A stretch of DNA of 64,000 bases from contig PANW01000089.1 of the NCBI GenBank assembly GCA_002707785.1, forward strand, positions 1-64,000. The letters run 5' to 3'. A program made the translations under genes and the position numbers. Each line of letters starts with the position of its first letter. Within the stretch, counting starts at the first letter, position 1. Below the pieces are notes generated by a model, which was given only the letters and a program-made list of their open reading frames with translations, did no database searches and was not told where the DNA came from. This DNA is from Cellvibrionaceae bacterium. Its GTDB lineage: Bacteria > Pseudomonadota > Gammaproteobacteria > Pseudomonadales > Cellvibrionaceae. Positions 2,372 to 14,827 of the stretch are shown in pieces.

Positions 2372-5227
2372 ATGGATAAAACCTACCAACCGCAGGCCAT
2401 TGAAACCAACTGGTACCAAACCTGGGAAGATAGCGGCTATTTCAAGCCCTCGGGCGAAGGCGACTCATACTGCATCATGATTCCGCCCCCCAATGTCACC
2501 GGTAGCCTGCACATGGGTCACGGCTTTCAGGAATCCATCATGGATGCCCTGATCCGCTACCACCGCATGAAAGGTCACGACACCTTGTGGCAAGTGGGTA
2601 CCGATCACGCCGGTATCGCCACGCAAATGGTGGTCGAGCGTCAATTGGATGCCCAAGGCGTCTCCCGTCACGATCTCGGTCGCGACAAGTTCATCGAAAA
2701 AGTCTGGGAGTGGAAAGAAGAATCCGGCGGCACCATCACCAAGCAGTTGCGCCGTCTAGGGGCCAGCCCTGACTGGAGCCGCGAGCGCTTCACCATGGAC
2801 GACGGTTTCTACGAAGCGGTACAAGAAGTCTTTATCAAGCTCTATGAAGACGATTTGATCTACCGCGGCAAACGCTTAGTGAATTGGGATCCGAAACTGC
2901 ACACCGCGGTCTCCGATCTAGAAGTGATCAGCGAAGAAGAAAACGGCTTCCTGTGGCATTTCCGCTACCCAGTTACCGGCTCCAACGAGCACTTGGTGGT
3001 CGCGACCACCCGTCCAGAAACCATGCTCGGCGATTCTGCCGTGGCGGTTCACCCAGACGATGAGCGCTATAAGCACTTAATTGGACAAACCATTACCCTA
3101 CCGCTGGTTGGCCGTGAAATCCCGATTATCGCCGACGACTATGTGGATATGGAGTTTGGTACCGGCTGTGTCAAAATCACTCCGGCCCACGACTTCAACG
3201 ATTATGAGATGGGTCAACGTCACGACCTGCCGCTGCACAACATCTTCAACGATGATGCGCAGATCAACAGTACTGCGCCTGAGAAATACGTGGGCATGGA
3301 CCGCTTTGACGCCCGTAAGCAGATCGTCGCTGATCTCGAAGAACTGGGTTTGCTGGAAAAGATCGACGACCACAAGCTTAAGGTTCCCCGTGGCGACCGT
3401 ACCAATGTGGTTATCGAGCCTTACCTCACTGATCAATGGTATGTGAAAACTCAACCCTTGGCCGACGAAGCGATTAAGTCCGTTGAAGACGGCGATATCG
3501 AATTCGTTCCCAAGCAATATGAAAACATGTACTTCTCTTGGATGCGCGACATTCAGGATTGGTGTATTTCTCGCCAACTGTGGTGGGGCCATCGCATTCC
3601 CGCTTGGTACAACGATACCGGCGAAGTGTTTGTCGGTCGCAATGAAGAAGAAGTGCGCAAGAAGCACAAGATCCCCGCTGATGTGACGCTGAAGCAGGAC
3701 AACGACGTACTCGATACTTGGTTCTCCTCAGGCCTGTGGACTTTCGGCACCTTGGGCTGGCCAGAACAAACCGATCTGCTAAAGAAGTTCCACTCCACCG
3801 ACGTGTTGGTGACTGGCTTCGACATCATTTTCTTCTGGGTTGCGCGCATGATTATGCTGACCCTTTACTTCAAGAAAGAAGTGCCCTTCCACACGGTCTA
3901 CGTACATGGTTTGGTGCGTGACGGGCAGGGCCAGAAGATGTCCAAGTCGAAGGGCAACGTGCTCGACCCTATCGACTTGATCGACGGTATCGATCTTGAA
4001 GACTTAGTGGCGAAACGCACGGCGGGCTTAATGCGCCCGAAAGATGCGAAGAAAATCGAGAAAGCAACTCGCAAAGAATTCCCAGACGGTTTGCAGTCCT
4101 ACGGCACCGATGCCCTGCGCTACACTTTCTACTCATTGGCATCCACCGGTCGCGACATCAAATTTGACGTGGGTCGTATTGAAGGTTTCCGCAATTTCTG
4201 CAACAAAATTTGGAACGCCTCACGCTACGTACTGATGAACTGTGAAGTTCAGGACGACGAAGGCAATCGCGTTTCTGCACATGACTGCGGACAAGACGAT
4301 GTCCAAGGATGGACAAGTGTCGCGGGAGACAGGACGTCGGGAGCGGCCGGTTCTACCGATTACGAACTTTCCGTTGCCGATCGCTGGATCATTGCCAAGC
4401 TGCAAGAAACCGAAAAAGCCGTGGCCGAAGGCTTTGCCAGCTATCGCCTAGACTTGGCTTCCCAAGCGCTTTACGACTTCATTTGGAACGAGTACTGCTC
4501 GTGGTATTTGGAGCTTTCGAAACCGGTACTCACCAGCGACGAATCCTCAGCGGCGCAAAAGAAAGGCACTCGCCGCACCCTGATTCGCGTGCTGGAAGAA
4601 ACCTTGCGTTTAGCTCATCCACTGATGCCGTTCATTACCGAAGAGATTTGGCAGCGTGTTAAAGATCTGGCCGGTGTCGACAATGAGGCTAAGACCATCA
4701 TGTTGGCCAAACTGCCCGAGTGCGACGATTCACTGATCGATGATCAAGCCGTCACCGATGTTGAGTGGATCAAAGGCGTCATCGAAGGCGTGCGAAATAT
4801 TCGCGGCGAGATGAACATTTCTCCGGCGAAAGCCATTCCGGTGTTTTTTGCTAACGGTTCCGACAATGACAAACGCTGCTTAGAGAGTAATCGTCAGTTT
4901 CTGATTCGCTTGGCCAGCCTAGAAAATATTACTTGGCTGAACGACGGTGAAGAAGCCCCTATGTCGGCCACCGGTCTGGTTGACGACATGGAAATTCTGG
5001 TGCCCATGGCGGGCTTGATTGACGTCGATGCTGAGACCGCGCGCCTCAACAAAGAAATCGATCGCATCAAAAAAGACGTGGTGCGCGTCGAAGGCAAGCT
5101 CAACAATCCTAAATTTGTCGATAAGGCCCCGGCCGACGTTGTGCAAAAAGAAAAGGATAAGCTCACTGAGATGAGTGGCGCTTTGTCGAAACTTGAAGAG
5201 CAAGTAGCTAAGTTGGCAACCCTGTAG
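2372..5227 (+). CDS. valS: Valyl-tRNA synthetase (likely start MDKTYQPQ at 2372; ORF track starts at 2342)
   Basis: Class I signature [24 protein letters not shown]-terminal coiled-coil. Confidence 0.96.
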
Positions 5228-5233
5228 CAATTG

Positions 5234-5309
5234 CGAGATACGAGATACGAAATAGCCGTTCTCGTATCTCGTAATCTCGTATCTCGTAATCTCGTAATCT
5301 CGTAATCTA
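5234..5309. repeat. Hairpin (CGAGATACGA/TCGTATCTCG) followed by tandem TCTCGTAA-type octamers
   Basis: 5241-5250 and 5262-5271 are perfect reverse complements; 5267-5309 repeats TCTCGTA(A). Confidence 0.9.
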
Positions 5310-5440
5310 GTAGCTTTCCCCAAGATTGGCACTTGGTTCAACGCAACACCCGCTACAACAGCTCACCCACAGCCATCTTGGCGTCTATTTCATTCTTGCA
5401 ACTTTATTCTTACCTTTTTTGACTCTCTTCGCCTTCTGAG

Positions 5441-5460
5441 TGTTGTTTTTTCATACAACA
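5441..5460. promoter_or_regulatory. Possible operator: TGTTGT-N8-ACAACA inverted repeat upstream of the accessory operon
   Basis: Perfect 6-bp arms read directly; about 80 bp upstream of the first ATG (5543). Confidence 0.35.
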
Positions 5461-5542
5461 TCTTAAATACTTATCTTTCTTGCTCTTATAAGTTCTGATT
5501 TGCCTTATCCCTATAACAACCCGGACGGTTGAGGAGGCTCCA

Positions 5543-5899
5543 ATGGAATTGATTGTCAGTGCGCTCGTGTTTGCTCTCAAAAAAATTGCCGATAAAGCGG
5601 CCGATGGTGCCATAGAAACCGGTCTTGGACTGCTGAAATCAAAGCTGCTCGACAGTGGTGACCCGCAAGTTAAAGACTCTTTAGAATCTCTCCAACAAGA
5701 TCCCAGTGAACGCAACCAAAAAATTCTCAATATGGATTTGGAAGCCAGTAACCTTCAAAACTCTGAAGAGTTGATGGACATTGCCAAACAACTTTTGGGC
5801 GAATCCGCTGAAGGCCAAACGGTGATCAACCAAGTCCTCGGCGCTGGCGCCAAAGCTGCTGCGGTCAGCGGCAATCAAAACAACGTCAACATTCAATAA
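5543..5899 (+). CDS. Small helical protein of unknown function, first gene of accessory operon
   Basis: 118 aa ORF with GGAGG-like RBS (gttgaggaggctccaATG); C-terminal VSGNQNNVNIQ. Confidence 0.75.
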   Translation: MELIVSALVFALKKIADKAADGAIETGLGLLKSKLLDSGDPQVKDSLESLQQDPSERNQKILNMDLEASNLQNSEELMDIAKQLLGESAEGQTVINQVLGAGAKAAAVSGNQNNVNIQ

Positions 5900-5900
5900 C

Positions 5901-6833
5901 ATGATTCAACAACATCTTGGAGAAGGTGCCGCGGGGGCGATCGTTGAAGGTGACGGCAATGAAGTTACGGTCAAGAATATCACCATCAATAAGGCTCGAC
6001 GTAAACTCAAAATCTCTGCGACCCTCGCATATTCGTTAGATCGAGTACCGCAATTGCAAGAGATTAAACCCTGTGAAGAAGTAAACGATAACCCACGCCT
6101 CCACCTCTATATCGCCGAAGGGGATTATCAAGACGCGGCAGAGACTCTGGCAAAACGCGCGTCTGAGCAACAGATTATTGCAGACGACTGCCGTGTGGTG
6201 GACCCGGATTTTCGGCACTGTCAAAGTGCTGAAGAATTTATCGAAACTTGGAGTAAGAGCCTCTACAACACGCTTTGTGCCGCCACTCCAAATCCGAACG
6301 CCAATAGTATGGATGCCTACTGGCAGGCGATTCTGGAGACGCTGGAAAGTTCCGGTGAACAGTGTGTCATCATCAACTGCAGTGTTGTTGATGATGAGAT
6401 TTTATCAACTTCCGCCAAAATCTGGCTGCAGTGGTTAGACACGGTTCATCAACGCCTCATGACGCTAAGCAAGCCTAATCGCATTCGCGTTTTTCTGAGT
6501 TTCACCCCTCAATCCACCCTGTTGACATCGCCTTTAACACATTGGAACTTCAAAAAAGTGATCAAACGCCTGAGTTCGATCAGCGAGATTGATGTTAAGC
6601 GCTTACCTAGCTTCGATCCAATCATTCGCAATCATTGCCTCGACTGGTGCGACGATCTCTTTCTACAGTGGATCACCAGCAACCGAGATCACTTGGACAA
6701 CCAAAACCCTGAAGAGCTTCGCTCTGATATAAAGACTCACATCGATAAATTATTCGCGGACACGCAAAGTGTTCCGCTGAGAAAAGTCGGTGAAACTCTG
6801 CGAGACAGCATACGGCAATCACTCAACACATAA
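5901..6833 (+). CDS. Protein with N-terminal EGDGNEVTVKNITI segment and a region resembling an inactive STAND NTPase
   Basis: 310 aa; starts 1 nt after the previous stop; no Walker A at the expected position (HLYIAEGDYQDAAETLAKR); Walker-B-like strand IRVFLSF. Confidence 0.6.
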   Translation: MIQQHLGEGAAGAIVEGDGNEVTVKNITINKARRKLKISATLAYSLDRVPQLQEIKPCEEVNDNPRLHLYIAEGDYQDAAETLAKRASEQQIIADDCRVVDPDFRHCQSAEEFIETWSKSLYNTLCAATPNPNANSMDAYWQAILETLESSGEQCVIINCSVVDDEILSTSAKIWLQWLDTVHQRLMTLSKPNRIRVFLSFTPQSTLLTSPLTHWNFKKVIKRLSSISEIDVKRLPSFDPIIRNHCLDWCDDLFLQWITSNRDHLDNQNPEELRSDIKTHIDKLFADTQSVPLRKVGETLRDSIRQSLNT

Positions 6834-6848
6834 ATAGGCGCAGCAGCC

Positions 6849-7817
6849 ATGGAAACTTATTATTTCGGCAATCCTCATCTCGACCAATCCAATCGCTCTG
6901 CGCTACCGGAATTCTTTCACAATCGTCATGGCAGAGCGGATCAATACCTCGCCAGCGAAGCGCTAAGCGCCGCGGCTAACGTTGCAATCTCGCTGGGACA
7001 ACCCTTATTGCTGACCGGCGAGCCGGGTTGCGGTAAAACCCAATTTGCAGAATCTCTGGCGGATGAACTGCAACTACCGCTGTTGCGCTTTAATACCAAA
7101 TCCACTTCTAGCGCTAGAGATTTACTCTATAGCTATGATGCAGTGGCGCATTTCCAGCGCAACCAGATACAACAACCGCGATCTACAACGTCAAGCGACG
7201 ACCAGTTTGGTGCACTGCCTTTTATCCGCTTACAGGGTTTGGGGCTGGCCATTGTCAACTCCAACCCCACGTCGCCGTTTGCCGACAAAGATCAAACACC
7301 ACAGCGTTCGGTGCTGTTAATCGATGAAGTCGATAAAGCGGCACGAGACTTTCCCAATGATTTGCTACACGAACTCGATCGCATGAGTTTTTCTATTGCT
7401 GAATTGGGCGGGCAAGCATTTCGCGCCGATCCTCGCTATGCGCCGATTGTCGTCATTACCAGTAATTCCGAACGTCATTTGCCCGATGCTTTTCTTCGAC
7501 GTTGCAGTTACTTCCATATTGAATTTCCCAGTGAACAAGCCCTAAAGGAAATCGTCATCTTGCACCTAAAGAGTTTCTCCGGCCAACCGTTACTGGAGTC
7601 GGCGATTTCTTACTTTATGGAAGCCCGCAGCAAAGGACTTGGCAAGAATCCCGGTATCGCCGAGCTGATTCAGTTTTTGGAAGCACTACAAACGCACCGC
7701 TTTGAACTGGATAAACCCCTGACAGAGCAAACCAAGAACCTCATTCCTTGCCTTGGGGTATTGTTTAAAAATCCCAATGACTTAGACATCGGCAAAAGCT
7801 TACTGGCCGTTCGCTGA
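6849..7817 (+). CDS. MoxR-type AAA+ ATPase
   Basis: Walker A GEPGCGKT, Walker B VLLIDEVDKA, sensor-1 VVITSNSE, arginine finger region PDAFLRRC; STSSARDLLYSYDA motif. Confidence 0.9.
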   Translation: METYYFGNPHLDQSNRSALPEFFHNRHGRADQYLASEALSAAANVAISLGQPLLLTGEPGCGKTQFAESLADELQLPLLRFNTKSTSSARDLLYSYDAVAHFQRNQIQQPRSTTSSDDQFGALPFIRLQGLGLAIVNSNPTSPFADKDQTPQRSVLLIDEVDKAARDFPNDLLHELDRMSFSIAELGGQAFRADPRYAPIVVITSNSERHLPDAFLRRCSYFHIEFPSEQALKEIVILHLKSFSGQPLLESAISYFMEARSKGLGKNPGIAELIQFLEALQTHRFELDKPLTEQTKNLIPCLGVLFKNPNDLDIGKSLLAVR

Positions 7818-7826
7818 GGATTGACC

Positions 7827-10800
7827 ATGGATACTGCTCAGTTCCTCGAGAAGCTGCCGCGCTTTATTCAGGAGCTCAAACACCATGGCTATAGCATAGG
7901 CACAGATGAAGCGGTTAATGCACACAAAATCATCCTCAAGGACTCTCTCTCTCACAACACGGATGACGAGAAGAACGCGACGCTAGATTCAGTCTACTTG
8001 CAACAAACACTGAGCCCGGTTTTTTGTAGCTCGGAAGAACAGCAACAGCATTTTCGTCAACACTTGGATCATTGGCTCGCGCGCAACAACGACGCTATTG
8101 CGGGCGCAGACGAAGATGAAGACATTGCCGATGACGCGACTCCGCCTTCAGCCTTTTCTTGGCCCGCGGCCATGTTGCTCGTCATTGCTCTGGCACTGGG
8201 TATCAGCGCTTTTCTTCTCACGCCCGTCCCCAGCGCCATAGATGACAACGGCGATTCCATAGCCAACAACGACAGCTCTCAGCTACAAGACACGCAAGGT
8301 GTCGACGATAGAAGCGATAACCCCGCCGCTGATCCAACCTCTATCACCGAGAAAAAGAGTACCAAGCCAACGCCTAGCGCCTTGGTGCGTTGGCTGACCG
8401 ATGACAATAGCATACGCCCGCTGATGCTAGCGGGCATGTTGGTCAGCGCCAGTATTGCTCTGCTGTTGTGGCGCAGACGCCGAGCTCAAATCACGCGAGG
8501 CAGTACCGATGGCGAAGAAACCACTCCTTTTAGCCTCAGCCACTGGGCTGGCAACTTACACGCCCCAATAGCCGTTCGAAAGAGCATTCAACGCTTGCGA
8601 GTACACGAATTGGTTCGAACCAATTCACTAGATATCAACGCCAGTATTCGTGCCACGATTGCTCACGGAGGGCTCTTTCACCCAATCACGGGAACACGAC
8701 CGCAACTGCCCGAGTTTATTCTGCTTATCGAGAGCAACAGCGTCGATGATCACCAGCGCGTGTACTCTATGCAGTGGTATCACTATCTGTTGGATCAAGG
8801 CCTTATCGTCACCCCCTATTGGTACACAGGCACGCCTTGGCAAGAACTGTTTGATGAACAGGGACACCGCCTCAGCTGGCAACAACTGGTCGGCCAGAAT
8901 AATCAGAAACGGCTGCTGGTTATGGGCGATGCTGAACGGTGGTTCCACCCCATCACCGGCCAACTGCCGTCCCAAAGCCAAGATATCAGTGAATTTTCAC
9001 GAGCCGCGTTGCTGACGCCAAAGGCGGTCATCGACTGGGACAATCACGAATGGCAGTTTCAGCAGTTGGGATTAGTCCCTTTCCACTTCGATGTAGAAGG
9101 CGTACAACAACTTTCGAACTATTGGCAGCAAGACGAACAACACCTTGAATATACCGTCCCCTCGAGTGATCGCCCTTTTCCGTCACTGCTAGAAGACTAT
9201 CAGATTGTCGATTACCGAGATTTAAATTTTGTGAAAAGAGTCGTCGCCTCACTCGAAGACTATCTCAGCCCAAAGTGTTTCAAGCTTTTGTGCGCAACCG
9301 CGATCTACCCAGAGTGTCACTTTGGTATTACTCGTCACCTAGCGGCTGACTACCTAGGCGATCTCAATAGCTTCAATGCACTCGACAAGCTATCGCCGTT
9401 GTGTCGCCTCCCATGGATGCGCAGAGGTGTAATGCCCGATCATCTGCGCCTGCTGCTGTTACAAAAACTAGACCGAAAAGAACTCGACCAACTGAGAAAC
9501 AAGCTCGCCCGGAATTTGAAGTTAGAAACAGGCGACTCATCGAGCTTACGTCTGCGTCGTTTCCTTGCCCCCAGCTCACTCACTCAGCGCTGGCTGCGTA
9601 AACTCCTTGGTCGCAGTGAACACTCAAGCTTTAGTCGCGATGCGGTTTTCGTGAAGATCATGTCGGGCAAATCACCGCTGCGATTGACGCTCGCTTCGGC
9701 AACCGCACAACGCTGGAATAAGCTGGTACAGCAACGCTGGTTTATGGCGATTGCCGTGACACTTACGATGACAGCGACGATTTATGGATGGCTCGAAACG
9801 GTACCGGAGATATCGACTTGGATATCTTCCGCTGTCGACACGCTCTCTTACGTTGGTTTTTTTGTGGCACTAAGCGTTGCGGCTTTCTTTGTTGCAGAAT
9901 TTTATCGAAATCGACCGCTGCCCTTTCGATATCCGGTAAAACTTGTCTCGCAAGTTCTGGTTGCCCTTAATTTAGTCTACTTTATACTTACCGAGCTCAC
10001 CGATTCGATAACACTGTCCACTAGCCTGCCCTACTACCAGTGCGCGATTTTGATGGTGATTTTGCATTTACAAAGCCGGATAAGATTGCCTCTAAGCCAC
10101 AGCCAGTCCAACAACGACATACTCAACGCCATTGCCGCACTCCCCGTAAAAACGCTGGCACGCTGGATAGTGACGTGGAGCTTAGCGCTCTACGCGTTTA
10201 ACTTACTACTGGGCACCCCGCTCTTTTCACTGATCAATCGCGACCAGAACTTCTGGGATCCAACGGGTGATCCCCTAGGAGCCTTACCACAGTTAGCGAG
10301 TGATTTTAGCAGTTCACTCTTTATGGCATCGATGGTAGCAGCCATAGCATATAGCTTGCGCCCATATCTAGGCTGGTCACATCGAGAGGCGATTCGAGGA
10401 GCCACTATCAGCATAGAGGTAAAATTTCTGTTGATGGCAATCTTCGGCGGTTTCCTCGAACTCTCAGCGCCACTGATCGACAGCGTTTCTGACTCGCATT
10501 TCCTAAAAGCTATTATCTCCCCGGCCATGTCATATCCCGCCGCAATCATTGCTTTGGGGATACAGGGTGTCTTGCTAGGAATGTTCGCGAGGGTCGATAT
10601 ACTAAAGAAAGGCGTTCAGCTTATTGCCGTATTCTCTTTAGTTGCAATTGCCTATTACCCACTTGCTCGAGCATTAACTGGAACGGACTCTGCACTGCCT
10701 CAGTTCAGCAGCGCAGATTTTTCTCTTGGTGGATTCCTCGTCTACTGTCTGCTCATTGGAACCATTAAGCGAGAGGACGCTCGACCTATTCGTGATGCAA

Positions 10801-12557
10801 TAGGCTTGTTATTTTCACTGCTCTTTATCATCGCTTTATCAACAATTCCATCGATTGTTGTGAGCAGGGTATGGGAACAATCTATAACTAGCGCAATGGC
10901 TATAGGATTACTGCAAACATTAGTGCTTACCCCCGCGGTTGCCGTTGTTGTTTTACTCTATGTACAGCGGAGAACAAAGTTCCCTTCTACTCAGTTCTCT
11001 GAACCCGAATTTTCAACAGAGAACAGCGACCAACACGAGTCAACTAAATCCGCAGCGATACGCTTATGGGGTTGGTGCCTCGTATTTCTTTGCGGCATCT
11101 CTTTCTCGGGTCTCTCTCTGTACTGGGCAGATAACAACGTGAGTTTCTATAGCGAAGCTCTGCTCTATTTGGCAACTCTATGGATCTTTATTGCCCATCG
11201 GCACGCTCTCCGTCGGGCGTTTACTGTCATCGCGGTCACGGCCTTGGCTGCGACGATTGCCCTGCCCATTTTGGCACCGCTCATTCAAGTATTGGAATAT
11301 CAGCTCGAGGCCACATCTTGGCTTAATTTTGCAACGCTGTTGAGTTGTTTTTGGTTGGTCCGCTATTTGTCGCAACACTGGCAAGGCGATCATCTATCAT
11401 TACCGAGTTACAACAGCCTCTGGCGCCCGTTGGGATTACTGCTTGTCTCTAGCGTTGCTGTCGAATGGTACGTCACCGACTCCATCAGCTTAGGCTGGGG
11501 CCTGGCGTGGTTACCGGTTTGGGTGTTATTGACCATGGGACGCTCGTTTTCGCCTCTCACCCTTTACGCAGTAGGGCTGCTTCTTTGCCTCGCCCTGATC
11601 GCAGGTTATGGAGTCGATGCGTGGTTGCTGTCTACGATAGATTTTGACGCTCTCTACCTGAGCTGGAGTCTCTATGGGCTCGCTGTGTTCACCATCCCCA
11701 TGGCGTTATTTTTAGGTTATTGGTTAGCAAGATCCAATCGGCTACTGAGTTCTAACAATAACACCCTGATGGTACTACTGCCGTTATTGTGTCTCTGTAT
11801 GATTCAGATCACCTACACCAGCAACTGGCCCGTTGACGAAAGCTATTATGTTATCAATGGATCTTTTGAGCTCGCCCACGGAATCGTCTTTGCATTGGGC
11901 TTTATCAGCCGGCGGCACCTAAAATATGGGGCTGCCGTGATCATCCTATTGGGACTTTTCAACGCAGGGCAATGGATCTCTGAATCTTACGCCGAGCAAG
12001 CGCCTCAAAAACCCAAAGAGTTAGACCGCCCCGAAGAGGATCTACAGCAACGGCCTCTGCCACCAACGCTAAATACGATTTCAGAGTCCAGTCGTCAACA
12101 GCCGCCCTACTCCAATCCACTTGAAACCGCCAACGGCGAAGCAGCAGCCAAAAGCGACTCGCCGTTATCAAAAGAGCGCGCCAGCCGAGCAGATAGCAAC
12201 CAATTAAAAGTGATTGAATCTAATAGCCTTAGAGAGAATGAACAAACACCACTGGAGCCTGAAACCGATGAAAAAAGCAAAACTCCAGCTAAAGACGAAG
12301 CAAAGGATTCTGACCCGAATACTGACAATAGATTAAGTAATGAACCTGTTGTACCACCCCAGTCAAACTGGACAGAGCTGCTCTCTGGCTTCAACGTGCG
12401 CATTGATGTGCCTGTCATTATTCTACTGTCATTATTCCTTTCTGGATTGTCTGGGCAGTGGCTACGCCAAAGACTTCCACCACGGTTTTCCTCAGGGGCC
12501 AGTATGAAACACGCGACCAATTCCCGCGAAGAAACCAAACAATATAGTAAGAGGTGA
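7827..12557 (+). CDS. Giant membrane protein: CoxE/vWA-like N-terminal module, winged-helix-like region and multi-pass C-terminal membrane domain
   Basis: LPRFIQELKHHGYSIGTDEAVNA (CoxE-like N-terminus); GGLFHPITGTRPQLPEFILLIESNSVDDHQRVYSMQWYHYLLDQGL (vWA-like); ATAIYPECHFGITRHLAADYLG...LCRLPWMRRGVMPDHLR; then many hydrophobic segments. Start at 7827 (MDTAQF) preferred over TTG 7821. Confidence 0.7.
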   Translation: MDTAQFLEKLPRFIQELKHHGYSIGTDEAVNAHKIILKDSLSHNTDDEKNATLDSVYLQQTLSPVFCSSEEQQQHFRQHLDHWLARNNDAIAGADEDEDIADDATPPSAFSWPAAMLLVIALALGISAFLLTPVPSAIDDNGDSIANNDSSQLQDTQGVDDRSDNPAADPTSITEKKSTKPTPSALVRWLTDDNSIRPLMLAGMLVSASIALLLWRRRRAQITRGSTDGEETTPFSLSHWAGNLHAPIAVRKSIQRLRVHELVRTNSLDINASIRATIAHGGLFHPITGTRPQLPEFILLIESNSVDDHQRVYSMQWYHYLLDQGLIVTPYWYTGTPWQELFDEQGHRLSWQQLVGQNNQKRLLVMGDAERWFHPITGQLPSQSQDISEFSRAALLTPKAVIDWDNHEWQFQQLGLVPFHFDVEGVQQLSNYWQQDEQHLEYTVPSSDRPFPSLLEDYQIVDYRDLNFVKRVVASLEDYLSPKCFKLLCATAIYPECHFGITRHLAADYLGDLNSFNALDKLSPLCRLPWMRRGVMPDHLRLLLLQKLDRKELDQLRNKLARNLKLETGDSSSLRLRRFLAPSSLTQRWLRKLLGRSEHSSFSRDAVFVKIMSGKSPLRLTLASATAQRWNKLVQQRWFMAIAVTLTMTATIYGWLETVPEISTWISSAVDTLSYVGFFVALSVAAFFVAEFYRNRPLPFRYPVKLVSQVLVALNLVYFILTELTDSITLSTSLPYYQCAILMVILHLQSRIRLPLSHSQSNNDILNAIAALPVKTLARWIVTWSLALYAFNLLLGTPLFSLINRDQNFWDPTGDPLGALPQLASDFSSSLFMASMVAAIAYSLRPYLGWSHREAIRGATISIEVKFLLMAIFGGFLELSAPLIDSVSDSHFLKAIISPAMSYPAAIIALGIQGVLLGMFARVDILKKGVQLIAVFSLVAIAYYPLARALTGTDSALPQFSSADFSLGGFLVYCLLIGTIKREDARPIRDAIGLLFSLLFIIALSTIPSIVVSRVWEQSITSAMAIGLLQTLVLTPAVAVVVLLYVQRRTKFPSTQFSEPEFSTENSDQHESTKSAAIRLWGWCLVFLCGISFSGLSLYWADNNVSFYSEALLYLATLWIFIAHRHALRRAFTVIAVTALAATIALPILAPLIQVLEYQLEATSWLNFATLLSCFWLVRYLSQHWQGDHLSLPSYNSLWRPLGLLLVSSVAVEWYVTDSISLGWGLAWLPVWVLLTMGRSFSPLTLYAVGLLLCLALIAGYGVDAWLLSTIDFDALYLSWSLYGLAVFTIPMALFLGYWLARSNRLLSSNNNTLMVLLPLLCLCMIQITYTSNWPVDESYYVINGSFELAHGIVFALGFISRRHLKYGAAVIILLGLFNAGQWISESYAEQAPQKPKELDRPEEDLQQRPLPPTLNTISESSRQQPPYSNPLETANGEAAAKSDSPLSKERASRADSNQLKVIESNSLRENEQTPLEPETDEKSKTPAKDEAKDSDPNTDNRLSNEPVVPPQSNWTELLSGFNVRIDVPVIILLSLFLSGLSGQWLRQRLPPRFSSGASMKHATNSREETKQYSKR

Positions 12558-12560
12558 GCT

Positions 12561-13373
12561 ATGCATCGTACTACGACAGAAAGACTCAAAAATATACAGA
12601 CACACTTGCAGCTAGAGCCCGACGGCCTGCTGGGTCCGCAGACATTAACGGCAATTGAACAGGCCCTTCAGATTGTATCCAAACCTCATGCACGAGAGGA
12701 AAAACCAGATCCAGCCGCAGTGACTAAATCGCTTCATCTGACGCTCGATACCGAGGAATTACAAGCGATTATCAACGATGAAATCGGTTCGCCCGAATAC
12801 TATAAAAAGCGCTTGCGATCGCCCTGCTGGCCTGGTGGTGATTCGGGCATCACCATCGGCGTCGGCTATGACTTGGGCTATGTCGACAAAGATAGGTTCC
12901 TAGACGACTGGAGCTCACAGCTCTCCGCACCTCACCTTCAAAAACTGAGCAAATACTGCGCCGTTAAAGGTGCTCAAGCAAAGTCAAAGTTGCGCTTTCT
13001 AGCCGACATTAAAATCCCTCTAACCAAGGCCAGCATCGTTTTTCGATCTACCTCCGTGCCCGCTTACGCGGCGAGAACTCGTCGAGCTTTTCCGGGCATT
13101 GAGAATCTCACCCCTATCGCACAAACCACATTGCTGTCACTGGTCTATAACCGCGGCGCAAGCATGAAAGGCGATAGTCGAAAGGAAATGCGCGCAATTC
13201 GAATGCTCGTTAAAACACGGGACTATCAAGGCATGGCAGATCAGGTTCGCAGTATGAAACGCCTTTGGGAAGGACGAGGCTTAGACGGGCTATTGATTCG
13301 AAGGGAACGTGAAGCGCTCGCACTGGAAAGGGCTCACAAAGGAAAGAAATCAAAGAAAACCGTAATCGTCTAA
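12561..13373 (+). CDS. Peptidoglycan-binding plus lysozyme-like muramidase, no signal peptide
   Basis: N-terminal LQLEPDGLLGPQTLTAIEQAL (PG_binding_1-like); DEIGSPEYY...GGDSGITIGVGYDLGY lysozyme-fold catalytic pattern (E, D, T). Confidence 0.75.
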   Translation: MHRTTTERLKNIQTHLQLEPDGLLGPQTLTAIEQALQIVSKPHAREEKPDPAAVTKSLHLTLDTEELQAIINDEIGSPEYYKKRLRSPCWPGGDSGITIGVGYDLGYVDKDRFLDDWSSQLSAPHLQKLSKYCAVKGAQAKSKLRFLADIKIPLTKASIVFRSTSVPAYAARTRRAFPGIENLTPIAQTTLLSLVYNRGASMKGDSRKEMRAIRMLVKTRDYQGMADQVRSMKRLWEGRGLDGLLIRREREALALERAHKGKKSKKTVIV

Positions 13374-13600: not shown

Positions 13601-14827
13601 ATGAAATCCAGAATAGCGAATGGACTCTCACTCCTCGCATGTGTACTTTTGGTCGTGGCCTGCAGTCCGGAGTCAACTCAAAATGACAGCGCTGCTGCAG
13701 CTGTCGCTACCCCCAATACTGCCACCACAACACCGTCTCTCGCATCCGAGGATGAAACACATCAAGTCACCATTGATCTCGGTGCCGAAGACACACTCAA
13801 GGTGCTGTACAGTTATCCAAACTCTCCGTCCTCTGCTGAGTCGTTAACAGACACTATCGAGCATTACCTCAATCAGCGCCTACAGCGAGATACCATTGGC
13901 AATGCATCGGCCATCGTCAGCATAAATAGCGACGGGGACTACGAAGCTGTTCTCAGTGGAGACTACGATCATATCAGTGACTACCAGTCACAAATCTCCA
14001 CCTTTTTAGCCAACGGTGAGTTAGCAGCAAAGGCTGTCGTGAATCTGAAGAACAACAAGTTATGGAACGAAGACGAATGGCGATTCTTCTTACCGCTGGG
14101 GCTGTCGATTATCAATCAACGTTCCGTGCAGCTGTTGCACTTCCCGCCAGATTACTCCCTGCCAGAGCAAAACTATCTCGATTCGAAAACCAGTCAACGC
14201 TGGGAAAAGTTGCTAGTTTTAAACGATGTTGCCAATGATGAGGTGACTCTCTACGAGAGCATTCTGGATGTCGCACCGATTGCAGCGCCCGCCAGTGCCG
14301 GCAGCACCCTGAGTGAGACTTACAGCTATTTCGAACCCTATGTGGTGAAAATGCTACCGCTGCTGCTGGATATCGATGAAGGCAGTAGCGACGCACTGCC
14401 GATTGTTGCCTATGGTGGGCCGGTACGGAGCTGGGTAACAAGCTACTTCAACATTGAAGATTTTGGAGTAAACAGTTTTGATACAGTCACCATTGATGGT
14501 GTTTCAGCGCCCATTCTAGGTGCCAACCATCCAAGCTACATCTGGTATGCCAAAGATCAAGGACGTGCGGCTGCCATGAACGTGATGCAAGAAGACCTGA
14601 TCTCAGCGTGCTGGCAAGCAAAGATGGGAGCAACGCCAACCTTGAACGGTGCCAGCACCCTCGCCAACTGTTCGACCTATTGGCAGGAAAAACCGATGAC
14701 GGTTTGCATCAACATGGAGATTCAAGCGTTTGATCAAACTGAAGACGAGGCGAAAAAATCCTGTAAAAATGATCTGCCGGATCTAGCAAAGCTGAACAAC
14801 AAAGAAACAACCCCAACCCAAATATAA
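13601..14827 (+). CDS. Predicted lipoprotein of unknown function
   Basis: Signal peptide with lipobox LLVVAC; 408 aa. Confidence 0.75.
   Translation: MKSRIANGLSLLACVLLVVACSPESTQNDSAAAAVATPNTATTTPSLASEDETHQVTIDLGAEDTLKVLYSYPNSPSSAESLTDTIEHYLNQRLQRDTIGNASAIVSINSDGDYEAVLSGDYDHISDYQSQISTFLANGELAAKAVVNLKNNKLWNEDEWRFFLPLGLSIINQRSVQLLHFPPDYSLPEQNYLDSKTSQRWEKLLVLNDVANDEVTLYESILDVAPIAAPASAGSTLSETYSYFEPYVVKMLPLLLDIDEGSSDALPIVAYGGPVRSWVTSYFNIEDFGVNSFDTVTIDGVSAPILGANHPSYIWYAKDQGRAAAMNVMQEDLISACWQAKMGATPTLNGASTLANCSTYWQEKPMTVCINMEIQAFDQTEDEAKKSCKNDLPDLAKLNNKETTPTQI

Follow-up and report, generated by a model that had tools for sequence, protein, structure and literature searches.

The window, a stretch of 64,000 nucleotides from a Cellvibrionaceae bacterium (contig PANW01000089.1), carries a block of five genes on the + strand. 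Gene 1 (5543-5899) encodes a protein of 118 aa, gene 2 (5901-6833) an inactive STAND (iSTAND) protein of 310 aa, assigned as third component, gene 3 (6849-7817) a MoxR-type AAA+ ATPase of 322 aa, gene 4 (7821/7827-12557) a vWA component joined to a polytopic membrane domain (1578 aa from TTG 7821, 1576 aa from ATG 7827), and gene 5 (12561-13373) a pesticin/phage-lysozyme-like muramidase of 270 aa. The layout given in a first-pass annotation of this DNA, five + strand genes separated by 1, 15, 9 (from ATG 7827) and 3 nt, agrees with the ORF positions. Homologues elsewhere back the reading frames of genes 2-5, and the order of genes 2-4 recurs in independent genomes. For gene 1, positional counterparts were found, with no clear homologue among them.

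Gene 3 had correctly been called a MoxR AAA+ ATPase. Its Walker A (GEPGCGKT, + strand 7017-7040) and Walker B (LLIDE) motifs are intact, and the protein shares 35-45% identity with its MoxR counterparts at five homologous loci. Matches to IetA, mad8 and MadB in PADLOC and NCBIfam were read as general AAA+ similarity. The 310-aa product of gene 2, earlier described as STAND-like without a Walker A, is an inactive STAND. Its core lies at 6021-6830 on the + strand (hhalign probability 96.6 over 248 columns) and was found at E 5.8e-14 by hmmsearch with a profile of 11 positional homologues, the best of 200 shuffles reaching 1.1. Against Pfam PF19995 alone the protein scored 12.8 bits, under the 24-bit cut-off, and gene 2 was the sole place returned when the whole genome was searched with that model. 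Strong PF19995 matches were obtained for the positional homologues (best E 3.6e-15; another 1.6e-17), and four of the six aligned proteins match this model at E <= 1, the weak window protein counted. By these profile matches, gene 2 is assigned as the iSTAND third component. Its predicted structure is poor (AlphaFold pLDDT 49, 4 sequences).

The product of gene 4 is composed of several parts, all encoded on the + strand. A CoxE-type N-terminal helical domain (7848-8099; hhalign probability 74, E 2.8e-5) is followed by two transmembrane (TM) segments ahead of the vWA, identified by hydropathy (8142-8243 and 8409-8477), a degenerate CoxE-type vWA in which the canonical DxSxS is not kept (8565-9134), a helical, vWA-L-like linker with a conserved LPWxRxGxMPxxLR (9135-9740; compare PMC8195603), a polytopic membrane region of about 20 TM peaks (9798-11906), a soluble segment of low complexity, rich in Pro, Glu, Ser and Asp by sequence (11907-12377), and a last TM segment, again by hydropathy (12378-12458). 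TM counts throughout are hydropathy peaks and not the output of a trained predictor. The earlier description of this protein as CoxE/vWA-like and polytopic was borne out: the vWA matches CoxE-type proteins with a profile-profile probability of 98.2 (E 3.5e-14, 192 columns), and the roughly 20 TM peaks lie after residue 660. The two TM segments ahead of the vWA, and the motif matched between genes 1 and 2 (see below), were missing from that annotation. A profile of region 245-640, built from seven homologues, matches CoxE-like proteins, most of which are encoded near ordinary MoxR genes; two of these targets were scanned and both gave Pfam VWA_CoxE. At the MIDAS, ESNSV replaces DxSxS, a position that is variable among the homologues too. 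Because the MIDAS aspartates are kept by most, not all, iSTAND-class members (PMC7159879), their loss in gene 4 is no strict disqualifier. The polytopic region matched no Pfam or NCBIfam family. The AlphaFold model of the vWA core is poor (pLDDT 55, 3 sequences), and a fold search of the PDB gave nothing below E 0.19; the top entry, a chain of the NorQD complex, was not used as evidence. A sequence search of solved structures returned nothing useful for gene 1, the vWA core, the iSTAND or the lysozyme.

Related loci and exchanged end modules

The block had been compared with the ternary MoxR-vWA conflict family, with the proviso that homologues of the five genes should be co-localised in other genomes. 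For the core they are: iSTAND, MoxR and vWA lie together in 14 complete loci (the window, L004, L005, L012, L014, L015, L021, L024, L133, L134 and L153-L156). The family placement, with the iSTAND as third component, is supported by several tests. L013 and L135 are ended by contig edges, and L136 is without MoxR in the gene calls. In a search with the vWA-core profile, system members scored E<=1.1e-71, and the next matches, mostly CoxE-sized, about 5e-13 or weaker. Judged from these sequence comparisons, the block almost certainly belongs to the membrane-anchored iSTAND-class MoxR-vWA ternary conflict systems.

These loci belong to the family already published (PMC7159879, PMC8195603). End modules are swapped across the 14 loci (FGE, WD40, GUN4; trypsin, TIR, CHAT, caspase). 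The vWA protein carries FGE in L014, L015, L133, L134, L024 and L155, WD40 in L004, L012, L135 and L136, GUN4 in L153, IcmF_C in L012, and about 20 TM peaks in the window, L005, L013 and L154. This vWA-polytopic fusion thus recurs in four systems, the TM parts of which show no convincing similarity to one another by BLAST or HHalign. The iSTAND is fused to trypsin, TIR, DUF4062 or CHAT in most loci, bears a caspase-like region, recognised by sequence, in L024, and carries a short motif in four.

Two of the relatives are of additional note. In L012 (G222, 7953-12011), WD40 repeats precede the vWA and the T6SS domains IcmF_C/IcmF_helical form the C-terminus. In L015 (G417:C1:3512000-3531000, 3950-12416), the genes for a TIR-iSTAND, MoxR and vWA-FGE are joined by one for a reverse transcriptase and one for another FGE protein, which probably bears a signal peptide; this locus looks like a system diversified by a diversity-generating retroelement (DGR).

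A motif matched between gene 1 and the iSTAND

The helical product of gene 1 starts with a hydrophobic helix (MELIVSALVFALKK) and carries a short motif at its C-terminus, a Bell-like layout. The helix is short (19-residue mean 1.12). In the domain-model libraries searched, the protein gave no family match and no Bell-model hit, and no homologue was found; we predict that it is an executioner or an adaptor. Its C-terminus reads QVLGAGAKAAAVSGNQNNVNIQ, and the motif itself (+ strand, 5822-5896, within INQVLGAGAKAAAVSGNQNNVNIQ) matches the N-terminal motif of the iSTAND encoded directly downstream (MIQQHLGEGAAGAIVEGDGNEVTVK, + strand, 5901-5975).

Such a matched pair is present in four operons (the window, L004, L014 and L153), in each of which a small gene lies directly upstream of the iSTAND gene. 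The motif is C-terminal in the small protein of the window and L014 and N-terminal in that of L004 and L153. Own pairs scored 51, 56, 47 and 74 (the last in L153), compared with 44 for the best cross-pair; the own pair was best in all four rows and columns, with p 0.0005-0.005 against shuffles. When compared with about 1,434 ORF N-termini, the small proteins all (4/4) had their own iSTAND as top non-self match; the iSTAND of L153 was scored separately (74 vs a best null of 50). Where the iSTAND carries a fused trypsin, TIR, CHAT or DUF4062 domain, no small gene with a matching motif was found next to it. These scores argue for homotypic coupling, which we regard as quite likely, and the matched motif probably lets one of the two proteins switch on the other.

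As read from its sequence and position, the pair satisfies the EAD principle (PMC7159879, PMC8195603) and has the layout of the Bell-NLR amyloid pairs, for which precedent exists (PMC7889193, PMC8086366). As these two sources relay from Dyrka et al. 2020, in Bell-NLR amyloid/BASS pairs the gene for a small helical protein likewise immediately precedes that for an NLR-like protein, and a short motif at the C-terminus of the former matches one at the N-terminus of the latter. The window differs from them: its receptor would be an iSTAND within a MoxR-vWA complex in place of an active NB-ARC/NACHT NLR, gene 1 has no significant BASS3 match, and no Bell homology was detected. Amyloid is put forward as a hypothesis because any resemblance to the verified BASS3 peptide is at most marginal. 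The gene 1 motif was not identified as BASS3 (p 0.84; iSTAND side p 0.046) in a comparison set limited to the BASS3 Frankia peptide and one archaeal peptide. In L014, a 93-aa protein (11828-12109) and the iSTAND (10905-11792) share a GDGN-type motif (ITGDGNTLNIS / ATGDHLNINVH), and the version in the 93-aa protein bears a marginal resemblance to the verified BASS3 peptide (p 0.038).

The motif pair might instead form a folded beta adaptor of the ordinary kind, an EAD not yet described, and gene 1 would then be a soluble regulator. This reading, to which we give about one chance in three, is consistent with the many EADs that pair homotypically in Kaur et al. (PMC7159879), with the weak likeness, at best, of the motif to a verified BASS peptide, and with the L153 motif, whose G/N-rich repeat might fold as a beta-roll. 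Against it, the motif covers only some 20-25 residues, lies at the chain ends and shows a G/N-rich alternation, features that are Bell-NLR-like and unlike folded EAD domains. We recognise the matched pair as a new feature of this operon, and it offers a directly testable coupling step. It may link EADs and amyloid signalling, literatures that we did not find joined for MoxR-vWA systems.

The muramidase gene and the genomic setting

The lysozyme-like call for gene 5 was correct. Its match to Pfam Pesticin (E 2.9e-4) is under the curated cut-off, 61% of the protein aligns with a phage endolysin at 46% identity, and a partial peptidoglycan-binding motif is present at the N-terminus. No hydrophobic leader was found in the gene 5 sequence. 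E74, T98 and D104, which we take from pesticin to be catalytic, are invariant across four aligned lysozymes. Pesticin-like muramidases and phage endolysins, such as the Xanthomonas phage AhaSv endolysin, share the homologous catalytic domain with its conserved E, T and D; they differ from gene 5, which has no leader and closes a MoxR-vWA operon.

Relatives of gene 5 (in G043, G001, where it is degenerate, G141, G281, G189, G235 and on plasmids) were located away from MoxR in every neighbourhood examined. No lysozyme gene was seen in the other complete iSTAND-MoxR-vWA systems, and a scan of viral contigs with the lysozyme returned no relative. To the earlier question whether MoxR, the 310-aa protein and the lysozyme co-occur, the answer is yes for MoxR and the iSTAND, which recur with vWA; the lysozyme did not recur as their partner in the neighbourhoods examined. 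Since the relatives sit away from MoxR, we regard the leaderless muramidase as a private addition to this operon copy, as far as sampled.

In G043 and G001 a gene 5-family lysozyme occurs near a peptidoglycan-binding-like protein of about 530 aa (L100 6835-9955; L137 7031-9697). The lysozyme is intact in G043, where two small genes intervene, and degenerate in G001. The lysozyme and the ~530-aa protein are possibly a separate cassette.

Carriage of the system is sporadic: with its own genome included, it was found in 3/144 genomes of the family, 5/369 of the class and 6/399 of the phylum sample. In two congeners, G004 and G003, the gene next to valS is the orthologue of 13601-14827 (61% and 58% identity, respectively), and all five genes are absent from the junction. 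Such an empty site is compatible with insertion here and with loss there. Judged by the empty site and the sporadic presence, the gene block is probably mobile. No flanking att-like repeats were found, sigma-70-like sites occurred at chance level, and the block does not stand out as foreign by its GC content. A cluster of short direct and inverted repeats (GAGATACGA/TCGTATCTC) lies 3' of valS and 5' of the block, at window positions 5230-5315.

We estimate, at roughly one in three, that gene 5 is a passenger behind the giant gene 4 and unrelated to the system. Its relatives, solitary or beside genes other than MoxR in every neighbourhood examined, are compatible with such a role, as is the lack of a lysozyme in the other complete systems. 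On the other side, gene 5 begins 3 nt from gene 4 with no terminator-like site in the gap, and the empty sites are without all five genes together.

Predicted signalling and relation to known systems

An immune or suicide function is predicted for MoxR-vWA ternary systems. The cited literature infers the route from the complex to the effector, and it draws the anti-invader role of the iSTAND class from comparative genomics and not from experiment. The sequence of the window shows a MoxR, a CoxE-type vWA on a polytopic protein, an iSTAND and a motif-bearing small protein. The best explanation of the block as a whole, with a probability of roughly 0.55, would be a membrane-anchored iSTAND-class system in which gene 1 is coupled through the motif and the muramidase brings about lysis. 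The gene 4 product would sense an envelope or phage-related change and tether the complex at the inner membrane, and MoxR would spend ATP on remodelling the vWA/iSTAND complex past a threshold. The freed iSTAND might then cluster, its N-terminal motif templating the same motif on gene 1 in an amyloid- or EAD-like manner. By analogy with HeLo/Bell proteins, gene 1 could assemble via its hydrophobic N-terminal helix and perforate the inner membrane. The leaderless muramidase would thereby gain access to the wall, much as endolysins do once a holin has acted, and lysis of the cell would come ahead of the spread of the invader. Signalling from gene 4 to gene 1 has about even odds. The full lysis sequence is doubtful, and still more tentative is the proposal that an immune complex signals its executioner via a prion-like (amyloid) motif in trans and then completes lysis in a holin-endolysin-like step with a leaderless muramidase. 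If true, the prion-like step would extend amyloid signalling from NLRs to chaperone-gated MoxR-vWA systems.

Two directions have been proposed for such systems. In one, the third component senses and the vWA tail executes (PMC7159879); in the other, antigen sensing is assigned to the vWA C-terminus and the effector role to the N-terminal part of the third component (PMC10907252). We favour the second here because the iSTAND of the window appears to draw in a small protein encoded separately, where others carry a protease or TIR. Applied to the same genes, the first direction would have the iSTAND sense and MoxR-vWA release an effector, namely the polytopic region as pore or channel, with gene 1 as adaptor and the lysozyme as second effector. 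We consider this unlikely. The authors of the family do propose C-terminal vWA modules as effectors (PMC7159879), and polytopic modules take the place of other C-terminal modules in four systems; but C-terminal modules are mostly ligand-binding-like (FGE, WD40), the third component bears typical effector enzymes (trypsin, TIR, CHAT, caspase), and PMC10907252 argues the opposite. A housekeeping role in the assembly of a membrane enzyme, as a chaperone like CoxD/CoxE or NorQ/NorD, is very improbable: the vWA and N-terminal helices are CoxE-type, and MoxR-vWA pairs mature metalloenzymes (PMC9976466), but no metalloenzyme gene was seen adjacent to the block, homologues have iSTAND variants with TIR, trypsin, CHAT or caspase, distribution is sporadic and a profile gap separates system members from CoxE.

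The preferred membrane-anchored reading is closest to the iSTAND ternary systems of Kaur et al. 2020 (MoxR-vWA subsystem 2; PMC7159879), with which the window shares the iSTAND, MoxR, CoxE-type helices and vWA, TM near the vWA N-terminus, a variable C-terminal module and an adaptor or effector at the iSTAND N-terminus. Unlike these systems, the window has a short paired motif instead of a folded EAD, and its MIDAS is degenerate. The first-pass annotation thought that the combination might be new. Membrane-proximal, wall-associated iSTAND systems, with TM segments in ~28%, were already described by Kaur et al. 2020, so that theme is not new. New here are the matched motif pair of genes 1 and 2, the recurrence of vWA-polytopic fusions in four systems and the muramidase, private to the window as far as sampled. 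The ~20-TM module and a muramidase gene are absent from the main text of PMC7159879 (which lacks the word 'polytopic' and uses 'lysozyme' once, for another system); its source tables may list vWA-polytopic fusions.

A second close counterpart is L154 on plasmid AZO_p2 of Azospirillum lipoferum 4B (WP_014188779, WP_014188778, WP_014188777), which likewise combines iSTAND, MoxR and a vWA protein with ~20 TM peaks. In contrast to the window, it has trypsin on the iSTAND and a trypco2 gene in lieu of the motif pair, no lysozyme, and a TM part without detectable similarity. Its vWA-polytopic protein (6332-10567, WP_014188777.1), encoded next to the trypsin-iSTAND, MoxR and trypco2, is annotated as 'O-antigen polymerase'. 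The vWA-polytopic fusions point to a form of the family that is embedded in the membrane and open to mis-annotation of this kind.
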